Shown here piece by piece: positions 8,866-49,859 of a stretch of DNA of 64,000 bases; within the stretch, counting starts at the first letter, position 1, and each line of letters begins with the position of its first letter. The stretch lies in assembly GCA_003249645.1 (NCBI GenBank), contig QKIH01000107.1:1-64000 (forward strand), read 5' to 3'. The translations under genes and the position numbers were made by a program. Source of the stretch: Desulfobulbaceae bacterium (lineage in GTDB: Bacteria > Desulfobacterota > Desulfobulbia > Desulfobulbales > Desulfocapsaceae). The notes under the pieces were generated by a model. That model searched no databases. It saw only the letters and a list, made by a program, of their open reading frames with translations, and was not told where the DNA came from.

Positions 8866-8925
8866 AAGTTCTCGACAGAAGAGAAAAGGCATCCCCTGTG
8901 CTGAAGCCGGGTTATGCTTTTCGTT

Positions 8926-13246: not shown

Positions 13247-13271
13247 TTTTTTCTCCTTTATTTCTTTTACT

Positions 13272-13302
13272 CATACCATCGGCAGTTATTGCAAGTGGTA
13301 TG
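13272..13302 (-). other. Intergenic hairpin between permease and binding-protein genes
   Basis: CATACCA (13272-13278) pairs with TGGTATG (13296-13302) around a 17-base loop with an inner GCA/TGC pairing. Such elements between permease and binding-protein genes often protect one side of the message; that role is inferred. Confidence 0.4.
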
Positions 13303-13370
13303 AACAAAACGTGATTGCTCACATGCCAGGTATTGTTTGTTCCCTAATTTCCGAGAAAGCGACCTGCCTT

Positions 13371-14345: not shown

Positions 14346-14418
14346 CGTCGTCTACCAATAGATTTTTAACTGCGTTTGCGGGTTCAATACCCTTTCACTC
14401 TTAATACTGATGAGTTTT

Positions 14419-20174: not shown

Positions 20175-20249
20175 ATTGCATCTCAGCTCAATTGCTGCTG
20201 CTGAACTATTATAGAACGAATCCCTGATAATTTATAGGATGGAGTGCGC

Positions 20250-20861
20250 ATGCCGCCGCTTATTAGTGAAAGACTGCGAAAGTCACGAAAACAGAAGAAG
20301 TTAACCATTGCTCAACTTGCCAGTCTTGTTGGATGTTCAAAATCATATATTTCCCAGCTGGAGCACGGGACGACCAAACCGTCTGTGACCATGCTTGGAA
20401 AGCTGGTGGACGCTCTTGATGCTCATATTACAGACTTTTTCGATGAGGACCGAGGTGGGGTCAGTGTAACTGAATCTCAATCGGTCGAATCAGAGCGTGC
20501 GATAATCAGCAATGAGTGTCTGGTCCGGGTGAAGGACAGAAGGACCATCGATTATCCGGATGGCAAGACCCGCAGCCATTTTCTCACCCGGGCCGTTTAT
20601 CATAAAAAGATGCAGCCTATTTTTACTATTATCGAACCGGGCGGCGAGTCTCAGTCTGATGAAGATATCATTCATCCTGAGGGCAGCGAGGAGTTCGTTA
20701 TCGTGCTCAAGGGTGAAATAGAGTTTGAGATCAATGGTGAAAAATTTCCTATCCAGAAAGGGGACTCACTCTACTTTGAAGGCAATATCCCGCATAAATG
20801 GCGTAATGTAACCAAAGAAACAGCCGAAGTCCTCTTTGTCTGGACGCCGGCCGTCTGGTGA
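20250..20861 (+). CDS. XRE-cupin transcriptional regulator (copy B)
   Basis: 203 residues. Helix-turn-helix at about 5-60 (SKSYISQLEHGTTKPSVTML), then a cupin (about 125-203) with HPEGSEEFVIVLKGEIEF, GDSLYFEGNIPHKW and the terminal WTPAVW. The ATG at 20250 has GGAG five bases ahead; a GTG at 20244 overlaps that site. It is nearly identical to copy A in the recognition helix and points toward the end of the long hydroxylase operon, which stops 10 bases away on the other strand. Likely a ligand-responsive regulator of the cluster. Confidence 0.9.
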   Translation: MPPLISERLRKSRKQKKLTIAQLASLVGCSKSYISQLEHGTTKPSVTMLGKLVDALDAHITDFFDEDRGGVSVTESQSVESERAIISNECLVRVKDRRTIDYPDGKTRSHFLTRAVYHKKMQPIFTIIEPGGESQSDEDIIHPEGSEEFVIVLKGEIEFEINGEKFPIQKGDSLYFEGNIPHKWRNVTKETAEVLFVWTPAVW

Positions 20862-20871: not shown

Positions 20872-21579
20872 TTATTTATACAATTTTTTCGGCGGGAATG
20901 AATAATGGCCGACTTTGCTTTGTCTCAATCCCAGTGAGGCAAAGGCCTCGGCGAATTTAAGCGCTACGGTGCATGGATCGACAACGACAATCTTGTAGCG
21001 TTCTTCAAGTTCTTTTGTATACCCGGTCATGCCGGCGCAGCCTAGCACAATAACCTCTGCGCCGTCTGCCTCCACAGCCTTTTCGACAACTTCGAGCAGC
21101 CTTTTGACCGTGAGCGCCGGATCTGACTCCGACTGGGCAACGCTTATGTCGAGGCTTCTCACTGATGCTAGCGAGTGGTGGCTGATATGGTGCAGGGCCT
21201 GGTGGATACGGGTCGGAACCCTCCTTTTGACCGGGGTGATGACCGTAAAGCGGGCTCCAAGCATGGATGCAGCATGGATGCTCGCTTCGCCGATACCGAT
21301 CACGGGGATTTGTACCATTTCTTTCGCTGCTTCAAGGCCTGGATCGGAAAAACAGGCGATGACCACCGCATCGAAGCCGTCCGTTTCGGCCTGTTTCACC
21401 AGTTTGAGCATTTCAGGAATGGAATAGGCTTCATCGACAGCACATTCAAGGGTGATCGGTCCCTTGTCCGGGCAGATTACCTGTAATTCGGTCTCGTTGC
21501 CGGCAATTTTTTTCAACTCTTTTTCGATATGAAGAGTCATATCAAGAGAGGTGTTCGGATTGATTACACAAATTTTCAT
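20872..21579 (-). CDS. Hydantoin racemase-like Asp/Glu racemase family protein
   Basis: 235 residues. N-terminal KICVINPNTSLDMT is typical of hydantoin racemases. Two catalytic Cys are in place: Cys76 in VIACFSDPGLEAA and Cys181 in VLGCAGMTGY, which act as the acid/base pair in this cofactor-free family. The enzymes invert 5-substituted hydantoins or related compounds such as allantoin. Last gene of the 13-gene minus-strand run that also encodes a dihydropyrimidinase-type enzyme, which makes a hydantoin or ring-amide substrate plausible. Spaced 13 bases after the mocA-like gene. Confidence 0.85.
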   Translation of the reverse strand: MKICVINPNTSLDMTLHIEKELKKIAGNETELQVICPDKGPITLECAVDEAYSIPEMLKLVKQAETDGFDAVVIACFSDPGLEAAKEMVQIPVIGIGEASIHAASMLGARFTVITPVKRRVPTRIHQALHHISHHSLASVRSLDISVAQSESDPALTVKRLLEVVEKAVEADGAEVIVLGCAGMTGYTKELEERYKIVVVDPCTVALKFAEAFASLGLRQSKVGHYSFPPKKLYK

Positions 21580-21592
21580 AAAAAAGATCTCA

Positions 21593-22195
21593 TTAGCGGT
21601 AAGTTAAGCCATTCAAATAATATTTTTCATACTCCTCGGGAGTGTCGATATCGATCAGGACAGCAGGGTCATCGACATCGTGGGCAACGCGATGCAGGCT
21701 GTCATCCTGAAACAGAAATCTGGCGCCCTGATCGCCTGCAGCATGGAGCAATCTTGGAAATACGGACTGGCCAAGAATTACCGGGTTGCCCCTCTGCTCT
21801 TTATAAACCGGATACAGGACGTCTGGTCTTGCGGCGATAAACGCTGCGATTAACTCCGTGATGAGACCTGCGCTTAAAAAGGGCTGGTCACAGAGCATAA
21901 AAAGAGCCCCGTCACATTTACCAGACACCTCCTGTACGCCGGCAATAAGTGAACTGGCCTGCCCTGATTTAAAATCAGGATTGACAATGATTTTACAGAG
22001 CTTGACCAATTCTGCCTTTCGGCGTATCCGGTCTGCATTGGCACCCAGTACCAGCACCGGCTGATTGAAGCCGGCCTCGCGTACAACTGAAATTGCATGG
22101 TCGAGCATGCTCCTGCCGGCTATTTCGAGAAGCTGTTTGGGTTGCCCCTTTCTCGACGAGCTGCCTGCAGCAAGGATAACAGCCTGTAATTTCAT
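21593..22195 (-). CDS. mocA: MocA-like molybdenum cofactor cytidylyltransferase
   Basis: About 200 residues. The nucleotidyltransferase signature LAAGSSSRKGQPKQLL lies at the N-terminus and LFMLCDQPFLSAG in the middle. This fits MocA, which adds CMP to molybdopterin to give the dinucleotide cofactor of xanthine dehydrogenase-family enzymes. A longer frame reaches 22384 but would run into the preceding Fe-S subunit gene; the Met at 22195 has AAGGA upstream and begins exactly at the family N-terminus. Encoded with both hydroxylases that would need the cofactor. Confidence 0.88.
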   Translation of the reverse strand: MKLQAVILAAGSSSRKGQPKQLLEIAGRSMLDHAISVVREAGFNQPVLVLGANADRIRRKAELVKLCKIIVNPDFKSGQASSLIAGVQEVSGKCDGALFMLCDQPFLSAGLITELIAAFIAARPDVLYPVYKEQRGNPVILGQSVFPRLLHAAGDQGARFLFQDDSLHRVAHDVDDPAVLIDIDTPEEYEKYYLNGLTYR

Positions 22196-22241
22196 GCTGT
22201 TATCCTTATTTCTGGCCATCTGTGCATATAGCGGATAAGAG

Positions 22242-22733
22242 TTATGGTTTTGACTGGCAGCAGATTGTCGGGTCGGCAGCCTGCTGAATCGCTCTGATAA
22301 TGCTTGTATAGCCTGTGCAGCGGCAGATATTGCCCCTGATCGTTTCCCGGATCTCCTCTTCTGTCGGGTGGGGATTGCGAACAAGCAGATCCTTGGCGAC
22401 CAGAATCATACCAGGAGTACAGAAGCCGCATTGTACGGCAGCCTGTTCAAGAAAAGCGTCCTGGATCGGATCGAGTTTCCCCGGGGCCGGGGCCACGCCT
22501 TCGATGGTGATGATCTCGGCGCCTGCAACGGCAGTGACTAAAGTTATACAGGCCAGGACAGGATCACCGTTTACCAGAACGGTGCAGGCTCCGCATTCAC
22601 CGGTGCCGCAGCCGTACTTGGTTCCTGTCAGTCCTAAGGTGTCATGGATGACATTGCTGAGAAGCTCATTGTCTGTAACGACGACATCATATTCTTCTCT
22701 GTTTATATTCAAAGTGATATGTTGTTTGTTCAC
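22242..22733 (-). CDS. Molybdenum hydroxylase [2Fe-2S] subunit 1
   Basis: About 163 residues with two [2Fe-2S] domains: a plant-type ferredoxin (GCGTGECGACTVLVNG and a later LAC) and a four-helix domain (CGFCTPGM and CRCTGY). It carries electrons from the Mo centre to the FAD subunit. The start is GTG at 22733, preceded by AAGGGAGA; it overlaps the stop of the FAD-subunit gene as GTGA, implying coupled translation. A longer ATG frame from 22760 would overlap that gene by 31 bases without a good site. Third gene of hydroxylase set 1 (order: large, FAD, Fe-S). Confidence 0.9.
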   Translation of the reverse strand: MNKQHITLNINREEYDVVVTDNELLSNVIHDTLGLTGTKYGCGTGECGACTVLVNGDPVLACITLVTAVAGAEIITIEGVAPAPGKLDPIQDAFLEQAAVQCGFCTPGMILVAKDLLVRNPHPTEEEIRETIRGNICRCTGYTSIIRAIQQAADPTICCQSKP

Positions 22734-23629
22734 GCGGCATCTCCCTTGGCTCTTACCCATGCTATCTGAAACACATCCATAAAGATTACGGCAGCTACTT
22801 TACGGCGATACTCTGCTGTTGAGCGTATATCGTCGATCGGAGTGATTGTGTCGGCCACCAGCTGAGCAGCCTTTTGAATCAGCTCGCTTTCAGGGCCTGA
22901 GATTTCCTGCCCGCCCAAAATATCATCCACCTTGTCGATGAGCAGGGTGGTTGGTCCGCATGAACCAACGGCAACCTTGCAACTTTCGCAGGTGTTTCCG
23001 TTACGCTGCACCACGACAGAAATATTGATCTTGGCAATATCGGCGCCGACCCTTTCCATCTTTTTGAATTCGCTGCCGGTGTTTTCTGAAGGCAGAGGGA
23101 CGTTGATGCAGTAAAGCACCTCATTTGCCTGGATGGTGGTTTTTCCGGGACCTGCAAGAAAATCTCTCAGAGCAACTTCTCGCTCTCCATTCACCGACTT
23201 CAGGGTAACGGAACTGCCCAGAGTCAGCAGGCCCGGTACTGTGTCGGCAGCAGGAGAAGCTGTGCAGATATTGCCGGCAATAGTTGCCATGTTGAGGATC
23301 TGCAGCTTGCCGACGGAAGAAACGCCCTGATGCAGGGCATTTATCGTTGGCAGGCCGCTGCAGGCGGCGGCAACCTTTTTCAATTTTGCAGCAGCACCGA
23401 TCTTTAAAATACCGTCCTGAACTGTGATGCAGGCAAGTTCTTCGATCTTCATGGTGCTGATTACGCGTTTAGGCGCTTTGCGCCCTTCTTTCATCTGGGG
23501 GATTAAATCGGTTCCTCCAGCCATCAGTTTTGTTTCCACGCTTGTGTCAGCCAGCAGTTCATAGAGTTCTGTCATGCTGGTTGGCTGGAAAAAATCAAAA
23601 TCATTGGTGATGATTCTAGAATTATGCAT
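22730..23629 (-). CDS. Molybdenum hydroxylase FAD subunit 1
   Basis: 299 residues, CoxM/XdhB type. FAD pyrophosphate-binding segments are visible: LMAGGTDLIPQMKEG (about 35-49) and TIAGNICTASPAADT (about 115-129). The C-terminal CO-dehydrogenase flavoprotein domain ends with DDIRSTAEYRRKVAAVIF. It passes electrons from the [2Fe-2S] clusters to NAD or another acceptor. Lies between the large and Fe-S subunit genes of set 1, with a 15-base gap to the former and a 4-base overlap with the latter. Confidence 0.9.
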   Translation of the reverse strand: MHNSRIITNDFDFFQPTSMTELYELLADTSVETKLMAGGTDLIPQMKEGRKAPKRVISTMKIEELACITVQDGILKIGAAAKLKKVAAACSGLPTINALHQGVSSVGKLQILNMATIAGNICTASPAADTVPGLLTLGSSVTLKSVNGEREVALRDFLAGPGKTTIQANEVLYCINVPLPSENTGSEFKKMERVGADIAKINISVVVQRNGNTCESCKVAVGSCGPTTLLIDKVDDILGGQEISGPESELIQKAAQLVADTITPIDDIRSTAEYRRKVAAVIFMDVFQIAWVRAKGDAA

Positions 23630-23643
23630 TGTTGTGACCCCTC

Positions 23644-25992
23644 TTAGGAATTTATGCCAGCTTCTTCGATGCGTTTCAGAACCTTTTCCGGGGTCATGGG
23701 AGCATCATTGATTCTGATACCGAGAGCGTTGTATACGGCATTGGCCACTGCTCCTGCGGTTGCATTGTTTGCGGCTTCGCCGACTCCCTTGGCGCCGAAA
23801 GGACCGCTGGGCTCATAGGTGTTGGCGAAAAATACCTGCAGATCGTCGATCATCGGCATTTCTTTGGCTGTATACATCTTATAATCCATCAAACCTGCGT
23901 TGCATGTCAGGTGACCGGTTTCCGGATTGTAGTCGGAGTCTTCAAGCAGAGCCAGGGCAACGCCACGGCAGAGACCGCCCTCGAGCTGACCGGCGGTGAG
24001 CTTTGGATTCATGACAGTTCCGGCATCAACGGCCGCAACGGCTCGTGTTGTTCTGATCTCACCTGTCCAGGTGTCCACTTCAACCTCGATGAAGTTGGTG
24101 ACAAAGCATGGCGGACAGTTAGTCTGGCGGTGGCTGGAAACACCAATTGCTGTTCCCCAGCCTTTGAACTGGGCGGTTTTGGCAGCCTCGCCGACAGTGA
24201 TCTGTTTGTCGGTCCCTTCAAGGAAGATAAGGCCTTCACCGGTTACCGGATTCGGCTTAATTTGCAGGGCTTCCGGGTTGACATCAAGCAGCTTTGAAGC
24301 GATTTCAAGGATTGTCTTCTTGGCAATGGTCGCGGCCCTGAGGGCAGCAGCGCCGCCGCAATAGATACCCCTGGTGGCGTGGGTGCAGACGTCATACCCA
24401 GTGGTTGCGGTGCTTGATGGTGAAACTCCAATAAGCTCAACGCCGATTCCCAGTTCTTCACCGACTATTTTGGCAATTGCATCCAGGGTTCCTCCGCCGT
24501 GACACATGAGGGCGGTGGAAACATCGGCTGAGCCGTCTTCGTTGATTTTCACCATGGCGGTTGAATAGTCGATAACCTCACCCGGCTGCGGGGCACCTGT
24601 TCCTGAAGTGTGAAAACCCCTGCCGACACCTATGCCTCTTCTGAAGCGTCCGGTTTTCTCCTCCGGCTTTCCGCGGTCATCCCAGCCGATCATCTCCCGG
24701 CCCTTGACGAGCATTTCTTCAACGCCGCAGCTTCTGATGATGGATCGAACAGTCGGCCCCTGACCCCAGAAGGTCTGTCCGAGTCCGACATAGTTTTTCA
24801 GGCGCAGTTCAATGGGATCCATGCCGAGTTTATCGGCGATCATATCCATCAGAGACTCGACAGCAAAAGTTACCTGCGGGTTGCCGTAGCCCTGCATCGC
24901 ACAGGCTGGAGCCTTGTTGGTGTAGACGCCTGTTCCTGCAAAGCGAAGGGCGGGCATCCTGTAAAGAGAGACAAACCAACCTGCCATGCAGCCCAGCAGC
25001 GGGTAAATCTGGATATTGTGTGCACCGGCATCTACCAGGGTCTCAAGCTGTCCGGCGGTGATAAGGCCGTCCTTGGTGACACCGTACTTCAGCTTGATTC
25101 TGGAAGGATATTTACAGTGATTATACATATCCTCTTCGCGGGTCAGGATCAGCTTGACCGGTTTGCCTGCTTTGCGGGCAAGGGCTACGCAGATGGCAAT
25201 CGGTGTATTCATCTGGATGGAGGAACCGAAGGCCCCGCCGATGGTGACCCGATGGACATTGACCTTGCTGAGCGGGATATCAAAAATCCGGCCGAGCAAC
25301 TGTCTGGTGTTATGGATTGACTGGGTGGTAGGCCATACGGTTATGCCACCGTCTGCCTCAGGTTTGCAGACGACACCCTTGGTCTCCATCTGGCCATGGT
25401 AAACGCGGCCGGTGGAGAAACTGTCTTCAACTATCAGGTCTGCCTTGGCAAAGCCTTCTGCGAGATCTCCTTCTTCGATAACGCGCTGACAGGCAATATT
25501 GTGCTCGATGGGGAGCACCTTGTCGCCAAGCATGACCTCGTCATAGAGAGCTGTGCAGCCGTCTTCCATGGCCCTTACCGGATCAAAGACACCGGGAAGC
25601 AGCTCGTATTCTACCTTAACCGTGGCAAGCGCTTTTTCTGCAAGGGCCTCGGTCGGTGCGGCGACGGCCATAACACCTTCGCCCACATGACGGATGATAT
25701 TGGGAAGAACCGTGCGGTCCCGGTAGGTCCGTTCCGGGATGCTGACCTGACGCTCGTTGTACACCTTCTTAGGCACATCGTCATAGGTTAGGCACACAGC
25801 ACCCATTGCCTCTGCCTCGGAGGTGTCCACTGAGATGATTCTGGCGTGGGGGTGCGGAGAGCGCAATACCCTGGCAAACAGCATTCCCGGCAGGATAACA
25901 TCGCAAGAGAAAATCTCCGCTCCGGTAACTTTTCCAAAGCCGTCCTTTTTCTGGGTATCTCTACCTACACTGAAGAATTTTTTTTCTGACAT
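23644..25992 (-). CDS. Molybdenum hydroxylase large (Mo-cofactor) subunit 1
   Basis: 782 residues, xanthine dehydrogenase/aldehyde oxidase family. An a/b hammerhead domain (about 20-125) precedes the Mo-cofactor domains. The proposed catalytic Glu lies in GPFGAKGVGEAANN near the C-terminus. Two cofactor loops differ from the common form: GGAFGSSIQ instead of GGGFGGKE, and MQGYGNPQ instead of RGFGxxQ, so the loop Arg is Gln. These differ from large subunit 2, so the two enzymes probably act on different compounds. GGAG lies seven bases before the ATG. The linked yqeB, yqeC and mocA suggest a selenium-containing Mo site. Confidence 0.9.
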   Translation of the reverse strand: MSEKKFFSVGRDTQKKDGFGKVTGAEIFSCDVILPGMLFARVLRSPHPHARIISVDTSEAEAMGAVCLTYDDVPKKVYNERQVSIPERTYRDRTVLPNIIRHVGEGVMAVAAPTEALAEKALATVKVEYELLPGVFDPVRAMEDGCTALYDEVMLGDKVLPIEHNIACQRVIEEGDLAEGFAKADLIVEDSFSTGRVYHGQMETKGVVCKPEADGGITVWPTTQSIHNTRQLLGRIFDIPLSKVNVHRVTIGGAFGSSIQMNTPIAICVALARKAGKPVKLILTREEDMYNHCKYPSRIKLKYGVTKDGLITAGQLETLVDAGAHNIQIYPLLGCMAGWFVSLYRMPALRFAGTGVYTNKAPACAMQGYGNPQVTFAVESLMDMIADKLGMDPIELRLKNYVGLGQTFWGQGPTVRSIIRSCGVEEMLVKGREMIGWDDRGKPEEKTGRFRRGIGVGRGFHTSGTGAPQPGEVIDYSTAMVKINEDGSADVSTALMCHGGGTLDAIAKIVGEELGIGVELIGVSPSSTATTGYDVCTHATRGIYCGGAAALRAATIAKKTILEIASKLLDVNPEALQIKPNPVTGEGLIFLEGTDKQITVGEAAKTAQFKGWGTAIGVSSHRQTNCPPCFVTNFIEVEVDTWTGEIRTTRAVAAVDAGTVMNPKLTAGQLEGGLCRGVALALLEDSDYNPETGHLTCNAGLMDYKMYTAKEMPMIDDLQVFFANTYEPSGPFGAKGVGEAANNATAGAVANAVYNALGIRINDAPMTPEKVLKRIEEAGINS

Positions 25993-26088
25993 ACTGACTC
26001 CATTTCAGTTTTTTCAGAGTCCATCTACATATTGTATGAGACTTATTATAAAAAAATATCGATTACAGATCCTTGCCCAGCGGCCCTG

Positions 26089-26658
26089 TTACCAGACCGG
26101 AGGGGAAAAGACGAACAGCACTTGTGCCGACTCGTCTGTGTTATTCATCCACTTATGGGGTAATTCGCCGTCAAAATAGAGGGTGTCGCCCTCTTTGAGC
26201 GTGATTTTTTCTCCGTCTACTACGAACTCCATTTCACCTTTCATGATCAAAACGAATTCTTCACTGTTTTGCCTGTGCCTCAGATGACAGTCCTGGCTGG
26301 AGTTGCCCCCCGGTTCCACCACGGTGATAATTGGCTGCATGCTTTTCTGTGAGACGGCTGCAGTCAAGGGCTGGGAATAAATCAGGCCCATTGGGTACTG
26401 CAGGGTCTGCCGCTGGTCAAAAGGCAGGTGAAAGCTTGCTTTGGTATTGCTGCCGTTTTCTTTCAACAGATTGGCAACACTGGTCTGCAGTTCATTGGCA
26501 ATCGTGCCGAGTACGGCAAGGGAAGGGGAGGACAGCCCGTTCTCAATCTGAGAAAGATACGATTTGGAGCAGCCTGCAGCCTGTGCCAGGGTATCGAGGG
26601 TCAGATCGTTGGCCAATCTGTACTTTTTTATCTGTGCACCCAGTTCTTTTCCGTTCAT
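26089..26658 (-). CDS. XRE-cupin transcriptional regulator (copy C)
   Basis: 189 residues. Helix-turn-helix at about 6-60 (SKSYLSQIENGLSSPSLAVL) and a cupin at about 115-189 (HRQNSEEFVLIMKGEMEF, GDTLYFDGELPHKW), ending FSPPVW. It is the most divergent of the three XRE-cupins: the recognition helix and cupin metal-site residues vary (HLRHRQNSEE where A and B have HPEGSEE), so it may bind a different ligand or site. It is encoded inside the long hydroxylase operon between yqeB and large subunit 1, so it is co-expressed with the enzymes. Confidence 0.88.
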   Translation of the reverse strand: MNGKELGAQIKKYRLANDLTLDTLAQAAGCSKSYLSQIENGLSSPSLAVLGTIANELQTSVANLLKENGSNTKASFHLPFDQRQTLQYPMGLIYSQPLTAAVSQKSMQPIITVVEPGGNSSQDCHLRHRQNSEEFVLIMKGEMEFVVDGEKITLKEGDTLYFDGELPHKWMNNTDESAQVLFVFSPPVW

Positions 26659-26682
26659 ATCGATTTGGTCAGTTATTGTTGT

Positions 26683-27480
26683 CTAGTGATTAATGCTGGT
26701 CAGAACCGCTTCGAGAACTGCTCCGCCAAGCCCGAGGCTCTTGTCTGATATGAGGTTGATATCGACGCCTTCACGCGGTTCCATATCGCCGATTTTCAGT
26801 CCTTTTGTAACTTCAATACCATCCCTGATCAGCCCTCTTACCGTGCCGGTGATGGCTGTTTTTACCGGAACAGAGCCGACTGTTGCGACTATGTCTCCGG
26901 CTTTTACCAGGTCACCAAGCTTGACTTGAGCCTTGAAGAGGCCGTCGGCAGGTGCGCGAAGAACCCGGTCAACATCGAATCCCATTACTTTTCCGGGGAT
27001 TCCGGTGTTCTTCTCAGCACTGCCCTTGTAGAGCACTCTGCCGCAGTTCGGGCCGCGGTTGGTTTCCACCACCGCGTGGACATCCAGCCCTGCGGTAAAT
27101 CCGGGGCCGAGGCCGATGACAAGCTGTGCTTCATCCATACGGGTACCGAGATTGCGTTTAGCCAGGATTGCATCGATGACGATCTGCGGTTTTCTGTCTC
27201 TTATGGTGTCCCACTGCGGATCAATCACAACGGGAATCTCGCCTCGCTCAATAGCCCTGTCCATCTCGCCACTGTCTGTGCAGAGAACGCCTGTAACCTT
27301 GTCGACAACGATACTGTGGTCGTAAACCGCCTCACAGAAAGAGACTCGTCTCCTGACCGCCATGGGTTTGGCAATCTCCAGCATGCTGATATGTCTGAAA
27401 CCGGACCGGTAAAGCCGCCAGGCTATGCCTGAGGCCATTTCGCCGGCCCCTTTGATGATTATTGAGGTATCACGAAACAT
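26683..27480 (-). CDS. yqeB: YqeB-type selenium-dependent molybdenum hydroxylase protein
   Basis: 265 residues, normal for the EF2563/YqeB family. Begins with a Rossmann-like IIKGAGEMASGIAWRLYRSGF, then EIAKPMAVRRRVSFCEAVYD, where RRxVSFxEAVYxG is the family hallmark; a later GLGPGFTAGLDVHAVVETNRG is also diagnostic. The C-terminal lipoyl-like half (GLFKAQVKLGDLVKAGDIVATVG) is typical as well. YqeB co-occurs with selD and selenium-dependent Mo hydroxylases in comparative genomics; its step is unproven. GGAAG lies before the ATG, two bases after the MoeA-like stop. Confidence 0.9.
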   Translation of the reverse strand: MFRDTSIIIKGAGEMASGIAWRLYRSGFRHISMLEIAKPMAVRRRVSFCEAVYDHSIVVDKVTGVLCTDSGEMDRAIERGEIPVVIDPQWDTIRDRKPQIVIDAILAKRNLGTRMDEAQLVIGLGPGFTAGLDVHAVVETNRGPNCGRVLYKGSAEKNTGIPGKVMGFDVDRVLRAPADGLFKAQVKLGDLVKAGDIVATVGSVPVKTAITGTVRGLIRDGIEVTKGLKIGDMEPREGVDINLISDKSLGLGGAVLEAVLTSINH

Positions 27481-27482
27481 AG

Positions 27483-28529
27483 TTATCTTCCAAAGCTGCA
27501 GTTAGGGAAAACACAGGTCGGACAGTTCAGGCAGAGTCCGCCGTGGCCAAGGGCATAAATCTCTTCCGGCGATATCTTCTCTCCGGCAAGTACCCTTGGA
27601 AAAACAAGATCAAACAGGGTTATGTGGCTGTGAAAGACACAGGCTGGCAGGCCGAGCACGACAATTCCGTCAAGGTTGCCCATGAGAAACATTGCGCCGG
27701 GCAGCACCGGGGTGCCGTACAGTTCTATGGTGGTTCCTGACTTGCGCACTCCCTGGCGGGTGACGTCGTCGGCATCAATGGAAAGACCGCCGGTAAGAAG
27801 GATTATTTCAGCTCCTGCTGCCTTTGCTTCTAAGATCTTTTCAGCAATAATATCTGCATTATCCGGGGCATTATCCTTTGAGATAAGCTCAGCCTCGTAG
27901 TCGCGAATCTTCTGGCCGATAAAATCATCAAAGCGGTCTTCGATTTTGCCGGTCATAATCTCGCTGCCGGTGACAACCGCTGCAACCTTGAGGTTCTTGT
28001 AGGGCAGGATGGAGACAACCGGGCCGGATTCCTTGATGATATCGGCAACCCTGTCAAGACGGGAGGCATCAATGGTAAGAGGGATGATCCTTGTGCCGGC
28101 TACCTTCTCTCCCTGCTTGACCGGAATAGTTGATTTGCGGGTGGCAAAAGAGATGTCGCCCAGGCTGTTGATTTTCATCAATGCCTCAACATTCACTTTG
28201 AGGATGCCTGCCGCATCTGCGGTCATATCTGATTTCCCTTCCGAAGGGCTGGACCAGCTCAATCCTTCTCCCACGGCCATTTCACTGATGCGGAGCGCCG
28301 CATCATCCTCGTGGATGGTTTTGTCATCAAGATCCAGGATGAAGAGATTGTTTTTACCGCAGCTTTCAAGGACCGGTATATCTTCCTGTCTGATTATGTG
28401 GCCACGTTTGAAAACAGCGGTTTTAGATTTACCGGGGATAATCTGGGTGATGTCGTGGGACAGCACAGTGCCGACAGCATCACGCACGCTGATAGTTTTG
28501 TATCCGGTTTTATTGGTTTCGTTACACAC
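27483..28529 (-). CDS. MoeA-like molybdopterin-binding protein with Cys-rich tail
   Basis: About 349 residues. An N-terminal MoeA-like region (SVRDAVGTVLSHDITQIIPG) is followed by a MoCF-biosynthesis domain (VVTGSEIMTGKIEDRF and ILLTGGLSIDADDVTRQG, the pterin-binding GGxS site). The last 18 residues (CLNCPTCVFPNCSFGR) hold four Cys and may bind metal. This variant accompanies YqeB/YqeC hydroxylase clusters, where it may insert Mo into a dedicated cofactor. Start choice: a TTG at 28553 has no ribosome site, whereas GTG 28529 has GAGG eight bases ahead; I prefer the latter. Packed between the amidohydrolase and yqeB genes. Confidence 0.82.
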   Translation of the reverse strand: MCNETNKTGYKTISVRDAVGTVLSHDITQIIPGKSKTAVFKRGHIIRQEDIPVLESCGKNNLFILDLDDKTIHEDDAALRISEMAVGEGLSWSSPSEGKSDMTADAAGILKVNVEALMKINSLGDISFATRKSTIPVKQGEKVAGTRIIPLTIDASRLDRVADIIKESGPVVSILPYKNLKVAAVVTGSEIMTGKIEDRFDDFIGQKIRDYEAELISKDNAPDNADIIAEKILEAKAAGAEIILLTGGLSIDADDVTRQGVRKSGTTIELYGTPVLPGAMFLMGNLDGIVVLGLPACVFHSHITLFDLVFPRVLAGEKISPEEIYALGHGGLCLNCPTCVFPNCSFGR

Positions 28530-28565
28530 AACAAGATCCTCAAGTTTATTCAAAAAAGTGTTCAG

Positions 28566-29978
28566 CTATCGCAAGGTGCAAAAAGGCGTCTCTTTACTAT
28601 CCACAACAAGCGGAGTAAGGCCGCGGGCGGTAACGGTTTCTTTGCCGGCGGGTGTTGTGATAATGGTTGAACCGGTGCCGAAAATTCTGCCGCGATGCAT
28701 GACGGCTTGGCCCTGGTTGAAGGTCATAACTGGTTTAAGTCTGTTTGTATCCACTACCGTGATGTCGGCATCTGCACCGATACTGAAGTGCCCCTTATCG
28801 ACAAGGCCCAGAATTCTTGCCGGATTGTAGGAGGCCTTTCTGGCAAAATCATTCATGCTCATTGCTTCGAGTCTGACGAGGGCAAGTCCTTTTTCAACGG
28901 TGACATTTCTAGGAATCCCGCCGCCGTCAGTGCTTATGCAGTCAACGACGTATGAAGAGTCGTCGCGTCTGGCGGTGGCAATCCGTAATCGTGGTATCTC
29001 CGGATTTACGGCAAAGCTGATGGTAATGTCGGTGTTTTTTGAACGCCAGTAATCGACAGCCTTCTGACCGGTAGTGAGGATGACCACGCCGCCAAGTTCC
29101 TGATTGACCTGGGCCCAGCCTTCGTAAATGGCCTTCTCAAGACCAGCTTCGGTTGTCTCGTAGTTTCTGGCCTCAAGACACATGACTGTGACCTGGCTCA
29201 GGGGAACACCGTTTTTGCACTCGCCGCTGGTGCCGTTAACCGGGGAGAGGTAACTCTCGCTGACAATATTCGGGTTCTCTTTTAATAGTGAGAGTGCAAT
29301 CTCAGCTTCTGCATGGCAGTCGATTACCCGGCCTCTGCAGTAGCTGTTGATGTGCGCCATGTGGATATTGCGATTTGCGGTTATCTTGATTGCTTCCTGG
29401 AATCCGCCGATATCTGATCTGGTGGCAAGAGAACCCGCGTGGAAGGCAAGATAGGCTCCTCTTTCAAGGGCAACATCGATGGCTGTTGCTGTTGCTTCAG
29501 GCGTAAGAGGGTAGTGGCCGCCGAGAATTTTGAAGCCGATTGCTCCCGCTTTCAAGTTGTCTGTAAGCAGGTTTTCAAGTTCGGCTCGTGACGGATTGGT
29601 GTCTTTTACGGTGTCACCGGGGCGGACATAGTTGATGCAGGCGATATTCAGGCCGCAGCCGTAATCTTTAGCTATCTCAAGAACGCTGTTGATTGGGCCG
29701 GACATGTCCAGTGCGGTTGTTACGCCGGCAAGGGCCATCATCTTGTGGGCAAAACGGCCGCCAAGCCATGCCGAAGCGTGCATGTGAAGATCGACAAGGC
29801 CTGGAATGATATTGAGGCCGGTAACATCTACGGCGTCTTTGGCTGCACCTGCACTGATTGATGGTGCTATCTCTGCAATCTTGCCATCCTTGACGGCAAG
29901 ATCATATCGACCGGAAAGATTGTTTGCCGGATCGTTTACCGTGCCGTTTTGTAGTACGAGATCGTATATGTAGCTCAT
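28566..29978 (-). CDS. Amidohydrolase-family metal-dependent hydrolase
   Basis: 470 residues of the amidohydrolase superfamily. Visible metal ligands are the His pair in GLVDLHMHA (about 61-69), the probable carboxylated Lys in GAIGFKILGGHYP (about 149), and His in AYLAFHAGS and IHMAHINSY. The C-terminal beta domain follows (GADADITVVDTNRLKPV). It should hydrolyse a cyclic or linear amide; it is closest in style to D-aminoacylase/dihydroorotase-like proteins, without a firm match. AGGA precedes the ATG. It follows a second cyclic amidase in the same operon, so the pair may carry out successive ring-opening steps on the hydroxylated product. Confidence 0.8.
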   Translation of the reverse strand: MSYIYDLVLQNGTVNDPANNLSGRYDLAVKDGKIAEIAPSISAGAAKDAVDVTGLNIIPGLVDLHMHASAWLGGRFAHKMMALAGVTTALDMSGPINSVLEIAKDYGCGLNIACINYVRPGDTVKDTNPSRAELENLLTDNLKAGAIGFKILGGHYPLTPEATATAIDVALERGAYLAFHAGSLATRSDIGGFQEAIKITANRNIHMAHINSYCRGRVIDCHAEAEIALSLLKENPNIVSESYLSPVNGTSGECKNGVPLSQVTVMCLEARNYETTEAGLEKAIYEGWAQVNQELGGVVILTTGQKAVDYWRSKNTDITISFAVNPEIPRLRIATARRDDSSYVVDCISTDGGGIPRNVTVEKGLALVRLEAMSMNDFARKASYNPARILGLVDKGHFSIGADADITVVDTNRLKPVMTFNQGQAVMHRGRIFGTGSTIITTPAGKETVTARGLTPLVVDSKETPFCTLR

Positions 29979-30019
29979 GGTTTAATCCTGATTATAGGCG
30001 TGTTAGTTTAGTCGGATGA

Positions 30020-31408
30020 TCAGATCGTTCCGGTTTTTCCTGCTATGAATCTGCCTTCTCCAGCATTGCCCTTCACTTCACCTTTTTCCGCTATCAGCTT
30101 GCCGCGGAGAAAAACAAAATCCGGTGAAGAGACCGTGTTCATGTCCTGATAAAGACTGTAGTCAATCTTTAGTTCCTTGTGGGTTGCTCCGAGTTTGCGT
30201 TTTCCTGAAAGGTCGAAGATGGCAAGGTCTGCATCTGAACCGACGTTAATAGCGCCTTTCTGCGGATACAGGCCGAAAATTTTGGCCGGATTTTCGCAAA
30301 GCTGTTTGACGATGCCGGTAAGGGTTGTGCGGCCGTCCATGAAGCCATGCTGAAGCATGATCGGCACCAAACATTCCATTCCGGGAACTCCGTTTGGTGC
30401 ATTGAAGACCTTGTCCCACTGCGGCATCTTTTTAGAAGAATGGCTGGCTGCATGATCTGATGCGACAACATCGATGAGCCCCTCGCTTACCGCCTGCCAG
30501 AGGCTTTCCTGGTCTTCAGGTTTGCGCAGAGGTGGCGACATTTTTGCAACCGCACCCATCTCGTCAAACTTTTCCTCGTTCAGGAGCAGATAGTGAGGGC
30601 AGGTTTCGGTGTAGAATTTCTGGCCGTCCCACTGCTTGAACAGGCGGACGACATCAAGTGCTTTGGCGGTGCTCAGATGCGGCAGATAGGTGTCGCAGCC
30701 GGCAGTTTTTGCAAGACTTAAAAACCTGAAAACGGCCTCTGCCTCACTCAGTTCCGGGTGTGATGCGGCATAGTATTTCGGATGTTCTTTACCTTGAGCG
30801 ATGAACTTCTCTTCCATGTAATCGATGAGTGCGCCGTTTTCAGCATGGGCAGCAAGCAGACCGCCGTTCTCAGCAACAACCGTCATGATTTTCAGGAGCT
30901 GCTCATCCTCAAGCATCATGCCGCGCTTGCGATAGGCCATGAATACCTTGAACGATGAAATGCCAAGCTCAATCATTGCCGGAATGGATTGTTCGCACTC
31001 TGCGACATCATCGGCCAGGAGGGTGCAGTGAAGACTGAAGTCGACAGTGCTGGTATCTTCGCCCTCTTTGACGAAGTCTTTCATCGCTTCGGCCAGCGGC
31101 TTGTCAACGCCCCATGCCTTAACGGAACCCACGTAGGGAATAAGGGTCGTGATGCCCTCGGCAGCGGCGGCCCTTGAAAGGGAGTTGATACGGTCGATGT
31201 AGACGGAGTGCAGATGGGCATCGATGATTCCAGGCAGCACATATCTGCCTTCAACATTGATGGTTTCCTTTGCGGCGAATTCTTCTTCAGGAGAGAGGAT
31301 ATCTGTTATCCTTTCTCCAGAAATGAGAAGAGTCGCAGGGGTGATTTTCCCACCGGTAACTACCATGCCGCCGGTAATTGCGGTATCTGCTTGTGGCATC
31401 GTTTGCAT
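30020..31408 (-). CDS. Cyclic amidohydrolase, dihydropyrimidinase/hydantoinase type
   Basis: About 462 residues. Metal-site features are GIIDAHLHSVY (HxH), the Lys of SSFKVFMAYRKRG (expected to be carboxylated), LLAAHAENG, TYLPHLSTAKAL and the ETCPHYLLLNEE block, which is typical of dihydropyrimidinases, hydantoinases and allantoinases. Members open cyclic ureides. The frame is open to 31486, but family alignment starts near MPQADTAITGG, so I use the Met at 31408; no start has a clear Shine-Dalgarno. A hairpin at 31455-31476 lies in the upstream part. Encoded between large subunit 2 and the second amidohydrolase. Confidence 0.85.
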   Translation of the reverse strand: MQTMPQADTAITGGMVVTGGKITPATLLISGERITDILSPEEEFAAKETINVEGRYVLPGIIDAHLHSVYIDRINSLSRAAAAEGITTLIPYVGSVKAWGVDKPLAEAMKDFVKEGEDTSTVDFSLHCTLLADDVAECEQSIPAMIELGISSFKVFMAYRKRGMMLEDEQLLKIMTVVAENGGLLAAHAENGALIDYMEEKFIAQGKEHPKYYAASHPELSEAEAVFRFLSLAKTAGCDTYLPHLSTAKALDVVRLFKQWDGQKFYTETCPHYLLLNEEKFDEMGAVAKMSPPLRKPEDQESLWQAVSEGLIDVVASDHAASHSSKKMPQWDKVFNAPNGVPGMECLVPIMLQHGFMDGRTTLTGIVKQLCENPAKIFGLYPQKGAINVGSDADLAIFDLSGKRKLGATHKELKIDYSLYQDMNTVSSPDFVFLRGKLIAEKGEVKGNAGEGRFIAGKTGTI

Positions 31409-31454
31409 ATTTTGGACACTATTCGGGTGTTCAATACGGGTGTATTGCAGTTGG

Positions 31455-31476
31455 CCGGACACATTGCTGTGCCCGG
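31455..31476 (-). other. Hairpin before the dihydropyrimidinase-type gene
   Basis: CCGGACACA (31455-31463) pairs with TGTGCCCGG (31468-31476) with one mismatch around a 4-base loop. If translation starts at 31408 it lies in an intercistronic space of about 90 bases and could mark an RNA processing point; if at 31486 it is coding. Confidence 0.35.
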
Positions 31477-31499
31477 CTAATCTCATTGTTTGATTGTTT

Positions 31500-33794
31500 C
31501 TACTTGTTGTTTAACGCCTTGAGGATGGCCTCGGGAGATGCGGGCAGATCGTTTATCGGGGCGCCGATAGCATCGCAGACAGCATTGACAAAGGCTGGCG
31601 CCGAGGGGACCGAGGATGGTTCTCCAAGGCCCTTTGCGCCAAATGGTCCAAGACCGCCTCCCGATTCAATCATGTCGGTTTGCATTTCGGGGACATCCAT
31701 GGTGGTAGGAATGAGATAGGTGGCAAGATTCGGATTAAGGGTTTTTCCCTTGTCGTATTTTATTCCTTCCATCATTCCATAACCAAGACCATAGATGGCC
31801 CCACCTTCGATCTGTCCTTCAGCACTCAGCTTGTTCACTGCCTGTCCTGCATCGTAGCAGGATACATATTTAAGCAGTTTTGCTTCGCCCGTGTCGGTAT
31901 TTACTGCAACTTCCACCGCGTGTGATCCAAAGGTGAAGTCGGCAAAAACCTGGCCCTGGCCGGAAGTAAAATCCATAAACTCACGTGCCGGGGCATTAAA
32001 CTGGGCAAGGTTGAACAGCTCTACACCGTCTGATGCACAGATTTTTACAAGCTGCTGGAGCGGCATGTTTTTCTCTGGCGCCGACTCAACAATTACCTGG
32101 TGATCAATCAGATCAAGCTCTTCGATTGAAACCTCAAGATACTTGGCCGCGGTGGTGAGTAAATTCTCACGGATAGCTTTAGAGGCTTTCAGCGTGGCAT
32201 TACCGGACATGTATAACATTCTTGTTGCTGTGGTTGTGCCGGCAAGCGGCGTCAGAGAGGTGTCACCGAAATAAACGGTGACATCATCCATGTCGACACC
32301 GAGCACTTCTGCCGCGATGGAAGCAAGTGAAGATGTCTGACCGCAGCCGATATCCTGGACGCCGCAGCGGATAACCACACTGCCGTCAAGCTCGATTGAC
32401 ACATAAGAACGGGAGGTGTCATGGAGGAAGGTCATGCGGCCATAGCTCATCATGGAAGATGCCATGCCCTGTCCGATAAGGATGTTCGGCTTGTCGGAGA
32501 TAGTCTTTTCTCCAAGCATCTCCATAACTTTGATGCCTGTCGCCTCTGTTTCGACTGCATTTTCCAGCACACGTCCAGTTGCCAGGGCATCTCCCTTATG
32601 CAGATAATTCTTACGGCGAAATTCGAGTGGGTCCATACCCAGTGCTTTGGCAGCCTCATTCATCTGACGCTCGTAAGCGAAGCAGACCTGGGCGCCGCCG
32701 AATCCACGGTTGGCACTGGCAAAGGTGTTGTTGGTCAGTACGGTTCTGGTATCAACTTTAACCGTTTCAGAGTCATACGGTCCAACCGCTTTGACTGTTG
32801 AGTAAAGGAGAATCCACGGGCTCAGGTAGACGTAGGCTCCTGCATCGGAGAGGATGTCCACCTGCTGGGCAACGATCTTGCCGTCTTTGGTAACACCGGT
32901 TTTATACTCCATCGTATAGGCGTGACGCTTGCCGTGGGAGATAAGGGATTCTTCCCTTGTCCAGGTCATTGCGCATGGTTTTCCTGTCTTGAAGACTACC
33001 AGTGCGAGATAAGTTTCAACCGTGATGTCTTCCTTGCCGCCGAATCCACCGCCGACCATCGGGGCAATGACCCTGACCCTGTTCTGGGCAATGCCGAGAA
33101 CCTCTGCAATTCCCCTGAAGTGCTCAATAACCTGGGTTGATGCGCGAATGGTGATAACGCCGTCTTCTCCAAGCCAGGCGGTACCGCATTCCGGTTCCAT
33201 ATAGATGTGGTCGACCTGGGGCACAGTGTAGGTGTTCTCGATGATCAGGTCTGCCTTGGCAAAACCTTCTTCTACGTTTCCTTTTCTGACCTTGTACTGA
33301 CAGACAAGGTTAGTGTCGTCTTCGCCTACAAGGTACGCGCCGGGCTTAAGTGCCTCTGCCGGGTCAAAGACGCCCTCGAGTTCTTCGTATTCGACCTTGA
33401 TCAGCTTGAGAGCTTCGTCGCAGATCTCTGGTGTCTCGGCAGCTACGATGGCAACTGCCTCGCCGTAAAAACGGACTTTCTTGTCGGCAAGTACCCTGTA
33501 CAACCCTTCAAATCCGCCTACTGTGTGAGTTTGACCGAATTTGGTAACGGTTTCGTTGTTCGGAACATCCTTTGCGGTAAGAACGATTTCTACCCCCGCG
33601 AGTGCCTCAGCTGCACTGGTGTCGATGCTGACCAATTTGGCGGCGGCATGGGCGCTTCTCAGCGCTTTGACATACAGCATGCCGGGGATTTCATTGTCGC
33701 CGGCGTAGTTGGTCTTGCCAAGCACTTTCTCCCATGCATCGTGTCTCGGCATGGGTTTTCCAATAATGCGAAAATTTTTATCTTTATAGGACAT
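31500..33794 (-). CDS. Molybdenum hydroxylase large (Mo-cofactor) subunit 2
   Basis: 764 residues, xanthine dehydrogenase family. A hammerhead domain (about 20-130) is followed by the cofactor domains with the canonical GGGFGGKEDI loop and NRGFGGAQ, and the catalytic Glu region GPFGAKGLGEPSS near the C-terminus. The canonical loops contrast with large subunit 1. AGGGAG lies before the ATG. The genes of set 2 run FAD, Fe-S, large, whereas set 1 runs large, FAD, Fe-S, so the two sets are not a recent tandem duplication. Confidence 0.9.
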   Translation of the reverse strand: MSYKDKNFRIIGKPMPRHDAWEKVLGKTNYAGDNEIPGMLYVKALRSAHAAAKLVSIDTSAAEALAGVEIVLTAKDVPNNETVTKFGQTHTVGGFEGLYRVLADKKVRFYGEAVAIVAAETPEICDEALKLIKVEYEELEGVFDPAEALKPGAYLVGEDDTNLVCQYKVRKGNVEEGFAKADLIIENTYTVPQVDHIYMEPECGTAWLGEDGVITIRASTQVIEHFRGIAEVLGIAQNRVRVIAPMVGGGFGGKEDITVETYLALVVFKTGKPCAMTWTREESLISHGKRHAYTMEYKTGVTKDGKIVAQQVDILSDAGAYVYLSPWILLYSTVKAVGPYDSETVKVDTRTVLTNNTFASANRGFGGAQVCFAYERQMNEAAKALGMDPLEFRRKNYLHKGDALATGRVLENAVETEATGIKVMEMLGEKTISDKPNILIGQGMASSMMSYGRMTFLHDTSRSYVSIELDGSVVIRCGVQDIGCGQTSSLASIAAEVLGVDMDDVTVYFGDTSLTPLAGTTTATRMLYMSGNATLKASKAIRENLLTTAAKYLEVSIEELDLIDHQVIVESAPEKNMPLQQLVKICASDGVELFNLAQFNAPAREFMDFTSGQGQVFADFTFGSHAVEVAVNTDTGEAKLLKYVSCYDAGQAVNKLSAEGQIEGGAIYGLGYGMMEGIKYDKGKTLNPNLATYLIPTTMDVPEMQTDMIESGGGLGPFGAKGLGEPSSVPSAPAFVNAVCDAIGAPINDLPASPEAILKALNNK

Positions 33795-33809
33795 GAATGG
33801 ACTCCCTGA

Positions 33810-34277
33810 CTATTGTTGTTTTTTCGCTGCACTATCGATTGCGTCGACTATCTTCTGATACCCGGTGCAGCGGCAGAGATTACCTGACATGCCTTCACGG
33901 ATTTCATCTCTGGACGGTGATGGATTTTTTTCAAGAAAGGCGGTGGCGGAAAGAACCATTCCGGCAGTGCAGTAACCGCACTGGATAGCTCCGCAGTTCA
34001 CAAATGCCTCCTGCATTGCTGACGGGTTTTCTTTTGTTCCAAGTCCTTTTAAAGTTGTAATTTCAGTTCCGTCTGCCGAAGGGGCAAGAACCAGACAGCT
34101 GTTTACTGCTTTGCCGTCCATGATAACCGTGCAGACACCACAGTCGCCGTCGCTGCAGCCGTCTTTTACTTCCTTGGCTTTTGCGCCGTCCCGGAGAGCA
34201 CTGAGAAGAGACTGGGTTGGCCCTACTTCAAGCTTTTTCAGTTTACCGTTAAGGGTAATTTCTATTTGTATACTCAT
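33810..34277 (-). CDS. Molybdenum hydroxylase [2Fe-2S] subunit 2
   Basis: 155 residues. First cluster ligands lie in GCSDGDCGVCTVIMDG with a later NSC; the second cluster is CGYCTAGM with CRCTGY near the C-terminus. Electron transfer subunit of set 2. AAGGAG precedes the ATG; it is 12 bases downstream of the FAD subunit gene and 15 bases upstream of large subunit 2, so the three are one transcript. Confidence 0.9.
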   Translation of the reverse strand: MSIQIEITLNGKLKKLEVGPTQSLLSALRDGAKAKEVKDGCSDGDCGVCTVIMDGKAVNSCLVLAPSADGTEITTLKGLGTKENPSAMQEAFVNCGAIQCGYCTAGMVLSATAFLEKNPSPSRDEIREGMSGNLCRCTGYQKIVDAIDSAAKKQQ

Positions 34278-34289
34278 TATGCTTACTCC

Positions 34290-35144
34290 TTAAGCGAATG
34301 CATCGGTTAATGCTCGTGCCAGAATGTTGGCTGCAACGTGGCGGCGGTAATCGGCAGATCCGCGAATATCGCTGATTGGCGAGATGTCTGCCTGAACGGC
34401 TTCACAGCAGTCTGTTATAAACTGGTTGTCAAAAGGTTTTCCTTTGGCTGCTTTTTCAACAGAAACAGCCCGCAGGGGAACCGGGGCGACAGCGCCGAAG
34501 GCCACGGCAATATCGTGGCAGATGTTGTCTTCTCTGTCGATAATGACTGACATATTGGCAACTGAGATGGCTGCGCCGCTTCTCTGTCCAACCTTGGCAA
34601 AACGACTCCAGATTCCGGATTGAGGTGTTGTGAAACTGAATCCGGTGATTATTTCGTCGTTTCCTCGCTCGGTGATTTTGTAGCCCTTGAAAAAGGAGGT
34701 GAGCGGAACCTGTCTGGTTAAGCCGTCGTTTGAGATGAGATGTACATCGGCATCAAGGGTCAGTAGGACAGGTGCAGTATCGGCACTCGGAGAAGCGTTG
34801 GCGATGTTCCCGCCTATGGTTGCTCTGTTTCTTGTAAGCGGTGAGCCCAGGCTTTTTGCGGCGCTGGCTAATACGGAGCATTTCTCTATGATCAAGTCGC
34901 TTTCGAGGAGATCAGCCATGGTTACCGCGGCGCCAATGAGTATGCGGCCACCTTCTTCTTTAATCTCTTGAAACTCATTCAGCTTCGAGATGTCCAACAG
35001 GGCAGTCGGATACGGTGCTCCCCGCCTTGCGGCTGGAATAAAATCAGTTGTACCGGCAACGGTCTTGAAACCTGTCGGTAACTGTCCAAGTAGGTCGGTG
35101 AACTCACTGTAAGACCGAGGACGAAAGTATTTTACTTCACTCAC
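34290..35144 (-). CDS. Molybdenum hydroxylase FAD subunit 2
   Basis: About 284 residues. FAD-binding segments VAGTTDFIPAARRG and TIGGNIANASPSADT are clear, and the C-terminus carries SDIRGSADYRRHVAANIL. The start is GTG at 35144 with AAGGAG six bases ahead; a frame from an upstream ATG at 35186 has no ribosome site and adds a non-family tail. First gene of the 13-gene minus-strand run, directly downstream of a promoter region rich in GTTAAC palindromes. Confidence 0.9.
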   Translation of the reverse strand: MSEVKYFRPRSYSEFTDLLGQLPTGFKTVAGTTDFIPAARRGAPYPTALLDISKLNEFQEIKEEGGRILIGAAVTMADLLESDLIIEKCSVLASAAKSLGSPLTRNRATIGGNIANASPSADTAPVLLTLDADVHLISNDGLTRQVPLTSFFKGYKITERGNDEIITGFSFTTPQSGIWSRFAKVGQRSGAAISVANMSVIIDREDNICHDIAVAFGAVAPVPLRAVSVEKAAKGKPFDNQFITDCCEAVQADISPISDIRGSADYRRHVAANILARALTDAFA

Positions 35145-49711: not shown

Positions 49712-49751
49712 AATCCTGAAGTGCATTACAGATGGTGCGCAAAAATTTGTG

Positions 49752-49833: not shown

Positions 49834-49859
49834 GACACGATTGTATATTTTATTTATAC

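Follow-up and report, generated by a model that had tools for sequence, protein, structure and literature searches.

This study concerns a 64,000-nucleotide stretch of DNA (the window) from a Desulfobulbaceae bacterium (contig QKIH01000107.1 of assembly GCA_003249645.1), a seabed-type bacterium represented by a metagenome-assembled genome (MAG) of 3.7 Mb and 87% completeness, and in particular an operon of thirteen minus-strand genes which extends from position 20872 to approximately 35144 and encodes two molybdenum (Mo) hydroxylases together with ring-processing, cofactor and regulatory proteins. Spacing between its genes ranges from overlap up to approximately 97 bases. The 5′ end is formed by a GTG start near 35144, the open frame running on to 35186, and the frame of the MocA-like gene begins too early, an ATG near 22195 being its likely start. 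The first-pass annotation had described thirteen tightly spaced genes with two complete FAD/[2Fe-2S]/Mo-binding hydroxylase trimers, a MoeA-like protein, YqeB, a MocA-like protein, an XRE-cupin protein and an Asp/Glu/hydantoin racemase, all of which is borne out by gene coordinates and family scans, with MocA scoring below its cut-off. From the 5′ end, the genes are:

34290..35144 (−), FAD1, FAD-binding subunit of hydroxylase 1 (family scan; orthologs 69–75% in L018/L019)
33810..34277 (−), FeS1, [2Fe-2S] subunit of hydroxylase 1 (family scan)
31500..33794 (−), LSU1, Mo-binding large subunit 1 (motifs STQVIEHFRG, GGGFGGKEDIT, ANRGFGG and KGLGE, the last with the catalytic Glu)
30020..31486 (−), AH1, hydantoinase/dihydropyrimidinase-type ring hydrolase (metal ligands HxH, K, H, H, D intact)
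28566..29978 (−), AH2, amidohydrolase, proposed N-carbamoyl-(D-)aspartate amidohydrolase (H65, H67, K150, H180, H209 and D351 conserved)
27483..28553 (−), MoeA-like protein with C-terminal molybdopterin-binding domain (MoCF_biosynth; family scan)
26683..27480 (−), YqeB, selenium-type Mo hydroxylase maturation factor (family scan)
26089..26658 (−), XRE1, XRE-cupin regulator (family scan)
23644..25992 (−), LSU2, Mo-binding large subunit 2 (motifs TTQSIHNTRQ, GGAFGSSIQMN, AMQGYGNPQ and KGVGE, the last with the catalytic Glu)
22730..23629 (−), FAD2, FAD-binding subunit of hydroxylase 2 (family scan)
22242..22760 (−), FeS2, [2Fe-2S] subunit of hydroxylase 2 (family scan)
21593..22195 (−), MocA-like cofactor nucleotidyltransferase (family scan; start trimmed from TTG at 22384)
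20872..21579 (−), RAC, hydantoin/allantoin racemase family (both cysteines present, in ACFSDPG and GCAGM)

Two partner hydroxylases and their maturation genes

AH2 was found in four of 258 genomes of the order, among them that of Desulforhopalus singaporensis DSM 12130, a member of the same family as the window organism, in which AH2 and LSU2 are 81% and 90% identical to their window counterparts. A search for the same gene order, as proposed in the first-pass annotation, found most of it kept in D. singaporensis (L013/L014/L018) and in the MAG contig L019, mostly at 62–90% identity, and the order of the operon is therefore not due to chance. In genome G258 (L020, L103) the same core parts are split over two neighbouring blocks, and XdhC-like and molybdate transporter-like genes as well as YqeC are additionally present.

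The subunit set of each hydroxylase (FAD-binding, [2Fe-2S]-binding, and Mo-binding with a catalytic Glu) is that of a trimeric enzyme of the xanthine oxidase family. LSU1 and LSU2 are only approximately 33% identical and belong to two sharply separate orthologous groups, the active-site motifs of which differ between groups and are nearly fixed inside each, with the catalytic Glu kept; the two are not duplicates. Orthologs are 49–88% (LSU1) and 54–90% (LSU2) identical to the window proteins. LSU2 was identified in sixteen genomes of two phyla, eleven from the phylum of the window or its relatives and five from Bacillota, and LSU1 was present in all sixteen, on the same contig in fifteen cases. 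The co-inheritance of two distinct Mo hydroxylases with a ring hydrolase supports the module that had been proposed from the window, namely double hydroxylation followed by ring hydrolysis.

LSU1 retains the Glu and Arg which contact purines in xanthine oxidase, and LSU2 is devoid of both. Neither protein could be identified as a xanthine dehydrogenase, as the XdhA, PucD and Se_dep_XDH cut-offs were all missed (at most 509.5 versus 783.65 bits for LSU1, and 475.8 versus 780 bits for LSU2). LSU1 also aligned well with the nicotinate dehydrogenase 3hrd (312 bits), a known selenium hydroxylase, and would in that respect suit a pyridine pathway resembling nicotinate breakdown in Eubacterium barkeri, in which AH2 would be the enamidase; such a pathway is nonetheless highly improbable, since pyridines give no ureide and would leave the hydantoinase, carbamoyltransferase and carbamate kinase described below without a role, and no hydroxynicotinate reductase was seen. 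A relative of LSU2 (43% identity) encoded on a plasmid of Streptomyces sp. NBC_01727 (L126, 6993–14313) adjoins the gene for a 2-nitroimidazole nitrohydrolase, an enzyme that makes imidazol-2-one; this locus is possibly an imidazol-2-one breakdown cluster and provides a weak hint that LSU2-like enzymes may handle imidazolones.

The first-pass annotation had also pointed to genes marking selenium-type hydroxylases and had placed yqeC just beyond the operon, where it is indeed located with a second XRE-cupin gene in between:

20244..20861 (+), XRE2, second XRE-cupin regulator, between the operon and yqeC
19346..20083 (−), YqeC (family scan)

In the window scan, YqeB (TIGR03309) scored 335.5 bits against a cut-off of 220 and YqeC (TIGR03172) 191 bits against 73, and the MocA-like NTP transferase reached 158.5 bits with the MocA/YgfJ model (TIGR03310; cut-off 186). 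The operon thus carries cofactor genes and regulators of its own, as had been claimed. The earlier reading depended on selD, of which the genome holds two copies above the cut-off, each with one in-frame TGA (contigs C83 and C98; L001 and L002); the second of these may be genuine or may stem from contamination of the MAG. There are likewise two yqeB genes, the second of which (L012) adjoins a MocA-like gene and housekeeping genes, with no hydroxylase seen there. YqeB is present in 15 of the 16 LSU2 genomes, compared to 85 in a sample of 297 genomes from the phylum. In Clostridioides difficile, yqeB is required for growth on xanthine and urate and yqeC is dispensable (PMC11448449), and the argument for selenium therefore leans mainly on YqeB and selD; on these markers, both Mo hydroxylases are probably of the selenium type.

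Ring opening and the probable aspartate end of the pathway

AH1 contains all of the metal ligands of dihydropyrimidinase, including the carboxylated Lys, and scored 370 bits with TIGR02033, below the cut-off of 393, which is exceeded by a type B relative in L122 (414 bits). RAC possesses the two catalytic cysteines of the PF01177 fold, as aligned to 3qvj, and is close to allantoin racemase. Of the two cyclic amidohydrolases reported in the first-pass annotation, AH1 stands as such; AH2 falls within the amidohydrolase superfamily, but the fold search did not clearly make it a cyclic amidohydrolase. In the AH2 family (54 sequences) H65, H67, K150, H180, H209, D351, R215 and R357 are conserved at 97% or more. 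Among the 50 PDB matches listed for its predicted structure (pLDDT 95.9), the best were N-acyl-D-glutamate deacylase and D-aminoacylases (3gip, 1v4y; TM approximately 0.66, approximately 16% identity), and TM values with hydantoinases, allantoinases and dihydroorotases were below 0.6. A TRAP or DcuC dicarboxylate-type transporter is encoded within 6 kb in 30 of 57 AH2 loci, and a hydantoinase, carbamoylase, aspartase (AspA) or aspartate racemase (AspRac) is found nearby in 11 of the 57. Because of the fold match to N-acyl-D-amino acid deacylases and these neighbours, AH2 is less likely to be a second ring opener and probably deacylates the chain once the ring has been opened; the modelled fold and gene context fit an enzyme that hydrolyses dicarboxylic amino acids bearing an N-carbamoyl (or N-acyl) group.

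Two genes outside the operon are relevant to the fate of that chain:

35619..36338 (+), AspRac, aspartate/cysteate-type amino acid racemase, divergent from FAD1
7456..8892 (−), AspA, aspartate ammonia-lyase (exceeds equivalog cut-off)

AspRac and/or AspA lie beside or within the clusters of the window, D. singaporensis, L019, L020 and L045, and in L020 AspRac is inside the operon, between LSU1 and AH1. The ring opener is accompanied by AH2 and aspartate racemase in the window, D. singaporensis and two more genomes; elsewhere AH2 is replaced by aspartate carbamoyltransferase (ATCase) and carbamate kinase, or by a carbamoylase, often with an adjoining aspartase. The clusters of G306, G491 and G550 comprise hydroxylase 1, LSU2, ornithine carbamoyltransferase (OTCase), hydantoinase, ATCase and carbamate kinase, plus, where the contig extends far enough, a Liv-type ABC importer, and in G544 LSU1 is followed by carbamate kinase and ATCase, with a hydantoinase nearby (57% to that of L122). 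In Bacillota clusters the hydroxylases are joined by ATCase, carbamate kinase and a ring opener that derives from dihydroorotase; aspartase occurs in G949 and G1020, as do fumarase subunits (G949) and malic enzyme (G1020), the latter two named from sequence without a family search. In G752, carbamoylase and aspartase take the place of ATCase and carbamate kinase. The two cluster ATCases that were scored reached 381 and 371 bits (equivalog cut-off 237), and the cluster ATCases retain HPLPR and R-x-Q, the motifs by which genuine enzymes are told apart from pseudo-ATCases in PMC4016543; their identity as ureidoglycine-type pseudo-ATCases was rejected on this ground.

Since N-carbamoyl-aspartate is the common node of all cluster variants, it is very probably the opened product, and it would be processed onward to aspartate and fumarate. 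Taken alone, the proposition that the pathway ends in aspartate appears highly likely, and comparative genomics thereby points to N-carbamoyl-aspartate and aspartate for a gene combination to which the first-pass annotation could assign no substrate.

These observations bear on a purine or urate pathway akin to that of the Escherichia coli ygeW-hyuA-yqeA-ygfK-ssnA-xdhD region, in which xanthine-type hydroxylation would lead to allantoin-like or diureido intermediates. The Mo hydroxylases, hydantoinase, YqeB, YqeC and MocA are shared (PMC2276186), the affinity of RAC to allantoin racemase would be in keeping with it, and PucR-type regulators were read from the Bacillota sequences. Under this scheme, however, aspartase and aspartate racemase would be without a role, the linked ATCases carry the genuine and not the ureidoglycine-type motifs, and the known allantoin route depends on an O2-requiring uricase. 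LSU1 and LSU2 are, moreover, only approximately 30% identical to XdhA/XdhD and reach no xanthine dehydrogenase cut-off, G949 and G1020 hold separate purine-like clusters, and ygeW, ygeX, ygeY, ygfK and ssnA had no match in the window (tblastn; the rest of the genome was not searched). An E. coli-type urate cluster was consequently rejected on its marker genes, and a purine or urate pathway in general is regarded as improbable.

Several loci encountered in this comparison are of interest in their own right. G902 (L152, 15300–19998) carries a second set of genes for a dihydroorotase-like protein, ATCase, carbamate kinase and aspartase; this set is not accompanied by Mo hydroxylases and looks like a catabolic carbamoyl-aspartate module. 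The OTCase gene of L122 (5085–6017; above cut-off) is inserted in the hydroxylase operon, with FAD2 on one side and FeS2 on the other, and similar genes occupy the same place in L121 and L123. A Desulfobacterales MAG contig (L065, 543–21399) holds two other Mo hydroxylases, SsnA-like and PrpD-like proteins, a nitrilase-family hydrolase and a TAXI-type transporter, together with an AH2 gene whose frame is broken (names read from sequence), and would represent a different N-heterocycle cluster.

Candidate substrate and entry steps

A ring that is hydrolysed to N-carbamoyl-aspartate is either hydantoin-5-acetate or dihydroorotate. The formula of imidazole-4-acetate (C5H6N2O2) plus two oxygens is that of hydantoin-5-acetate (C5H6N2O4), and imidazole-4-acetate is, to our knowledge, the only common azole that yields N-carbamoyl-aspartate after two hydroxylations. 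A hydantoin-5-acetate ring fits the hydantoinase and hydantoin-type racemase of the window, and imidazole-4-acetate is put forward here as the ring substrate at what we judge to be an even chance.

A six-membered ring would lead to the same aspartate end if the hydroxylases made orotate or dihydroorotate from a pyrimidine carboxylate, to be opened by AH1 or a dihydroorotase. The Bacillota clusters with their dihydroorotase-type opener, ATCase and carbamate kinase speak for it, as do PyrD/PyrK beside LSU1 in G949, PyrE in G544, and PyrD with carbamoylase and AspA in G752 (read from sequence). Yet we know of no natural pyrimidine-4-carboxylate substrate, the type A clusters have a hydantoinase and hydantoin-type racemase and no PyrD or dihydroorotase, and all four Bacillota openers read ATDHAPY instead of ATDHAPH, a His to Tyr change which implies that they are not canonical dihydroorotases. 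A dihydroorotate-type ring, although the principal rival, is thus considered unlikely.

Further genes lie beyond RAC and yqeC, and some of them may indicate the source of imidazole-4-acetate:

17879..18487 (−), XRE3, third XRE-cupin regulator
15987..17831 (−), aldehyde:ferredoxin oxidoreductase (AOR), proposed imidazole-acetaldehyde oxidation (66% match in L013)
12158..15939 (−), ABC transporter (binding protein, permease, ATPase), also adjoining the G258 cluster (60–71%)
10627..12060 (−), class III amine transaminase, proposed histamine transaminase
8926..10344 (−), APC-family amino acid/amine permease

AOR, the transaminase (87%), the permease and aspartase adjoin the operon on its racemase side in D. 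singaporensis (L013) as in the window, and the first three suggest histamine as the source. The transaminase was rejected as the taurine enzyme of D. singaporensis, as the solved structures closest to it are the transaminases 5g09/5g2p (556 and 537 bits), compared to 184 bits with the taurine enzyme 6jix. Among eight genomes tested it was found (at 87%) only in the two with AOR and permease in the cluster, the match in G260 being 37%, and a plasmid search for it returned no match. AspRac, AspA and, in two genomes, the amine transaminase, AOR and permease thus appear to belong to the system, which is at odds with the self-contained module of the first-pass annotation. In the distant genomes G258 (L103, 4548–5891) and G531 (L124, 13209–14681), LSU2 is adjoined by a class III aminotransferase that resembles GSA aminomutase; the two copies share 80% identity, and the enzyme is perhaps another amine entry step. 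Elsewhere in the window, a TPP riboswitch above gathering score (49750–49844, +) lies upstream of a gene at 49841.

The azole module could also act on another imidazole or imidazolone, with transaminase, AOR and permease as unrelated neighbours. This would accommodate the Liv-type ABC importer that G099 and the type B clusters carry instead, and the linkage of the entry genes in only two related genomes; on the other hand, the order of AOR, transaminase, permease and AspA beside the operon is kept in D. singaporensis (L013), and the product must still match N-carbamoyl-aspartate. We deem such a substrate rather unlikely.

The following observations weigh against anaerobic imidazole-4-acetate catabolism as proposed here. 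The transaminase/AOR/permease link is confined to two related genomes, and no AOR was seen near the different aminotransferase of G258 and G531. The dihydroorotase-derived opener of Bacillota, with PyrD nearby in two genomes, suits a six-membered ring better. The cluster ATCase is the sole copy found in G306, G491, G550, G544 and G1020, and may therefore also serve biosynthesis as PyrB. AH2 occurs in many other gene contexts, so its substrate may be broader, and YqeB was not found in G306, an LSU2 genome.

With these points taken into account, we give an equal chance, and no more, to the whole locus functioning in anaerobic imidazole-4-acetate catabolism that ends in aspartate. In this scheme, for which we infer every substrate, the stereochemistry and the enzyme-bound selenium, histamine would probably be converted to imidazole-4-acetate by the class III transaminase and AOR in the window genome and D. 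singaporensis. The two different Mo hydroxylases, matured by YqeB, YqeC, MocA, the MoeA-like protein and selD, would each place one water-derived oxygen on the azole ring to give a cyclic ureide, most likely hydantoin-5-acetate. RAC would racemise this ureide, AH1 would open it to N-carbamoyl-aspartate and AH2 would strip the carbamoyl group to yield (D-)aspartate, from which AspRac would produce L-aspartate and AspA ammonia and fumarate. A literature search for anaerobic histamine or imidazole breakdown involving a hydantoinase or Mo hydroxylase found nothing relevant, and an oxygen-independent histamine/imidazole-4-acetate route with selenium-type hydroxylases and variants across two phyla is possibly, if somewhat doubtfully, the first of its kind.

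Relation to known systems and significance

The selenium-dependent Mo hydroxylase region of E. coli, Enterococcus faecalis and C. difficile (xdhABC, ygeWXY, hyuA, yqeA, yqeBC, mocA, ygfK, ssnA, xdhD) likewise combines Mo hydroxylases, YqeB, YqeC, MocA and a hydantoinase (PMC2276186, PMC11448449), and its carbamoyltransferase and carbamate kinase are matched in relatives of the window cluster; the window differs in its large subunits (approximately 30% identical) and in having aspartate racemase, aspartase and AH2 instead of ygeX/ygeY/ygfK/ssnA. The aerobic histamine pathway of Pseudomonas putida U (HinABCDFLHGIJK) is similar in its permease, its conversion of histamine to imidazole-4-acetate and its aspartate/fumarate end (PMC8231116), a likeness of pathway logic taken from the published description; that strain, however, grows on histamine aerobically, whereas the scheme proposed for the window relies on Mo hydroxylases that use water and passes through a hydantoin. 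The three activities proposed for RAC, AH1 and AH2 are those of the D-hydantoinase process (hydantoin racemase, D-hydantoinase and D-carbamoylase), but AH2 is of the amidohydrolase superfamily, unlike the carbamoylases known to us, two Mo hydroxylases would produce the ring, and the resulting D-amino acid would be racemised and degraded. Orotate fermentation by Clostridium oroticum shares the carbamoyl-aspartate and aspartate intermediates and differs in its six-membered ring and in the Mo hydroxylases, of which we know none in that pathway. Finally, the Rubrobacter ureidoglycine carbamoyltransferase module resembles the cluster variants in its cyclic amidohydrolase, carbamoyltransferase and carbamate kinase, but its pseudo-ATCase serves uricase-dependent purine breakdown, in contrast to the genuine motifs of the ATCases linked here (PMC4016543). 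The locus would accordingly represent a new variant related to the selenium Mo-hydroxylase/hydantoinase clusters already known, with a well supported end product and a putative, testable substrate.

Substrates have been assigned to few selenium-type Mo hydroxylases, and these are mostly purines and nicotinate (PMC2276186). The pathway proposed here would, if true, extend them to a third class of substrate, acted on by two enzymes that are obligate partners, and would provide a function for the unnamed amidohydrolase family AH2, which has more than 50 members. It would further imply that ATCase is used for energy, the ATCase variant gaining ATP by reversed pyrimidine biosynthesis chemistry. As D. 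singaporensis is cultured, the prediction is directly testable, and it would, if correct, show what becomes of histamine and imidazole acetate in sediments devoid of oxygen, and perhaps also in guts.

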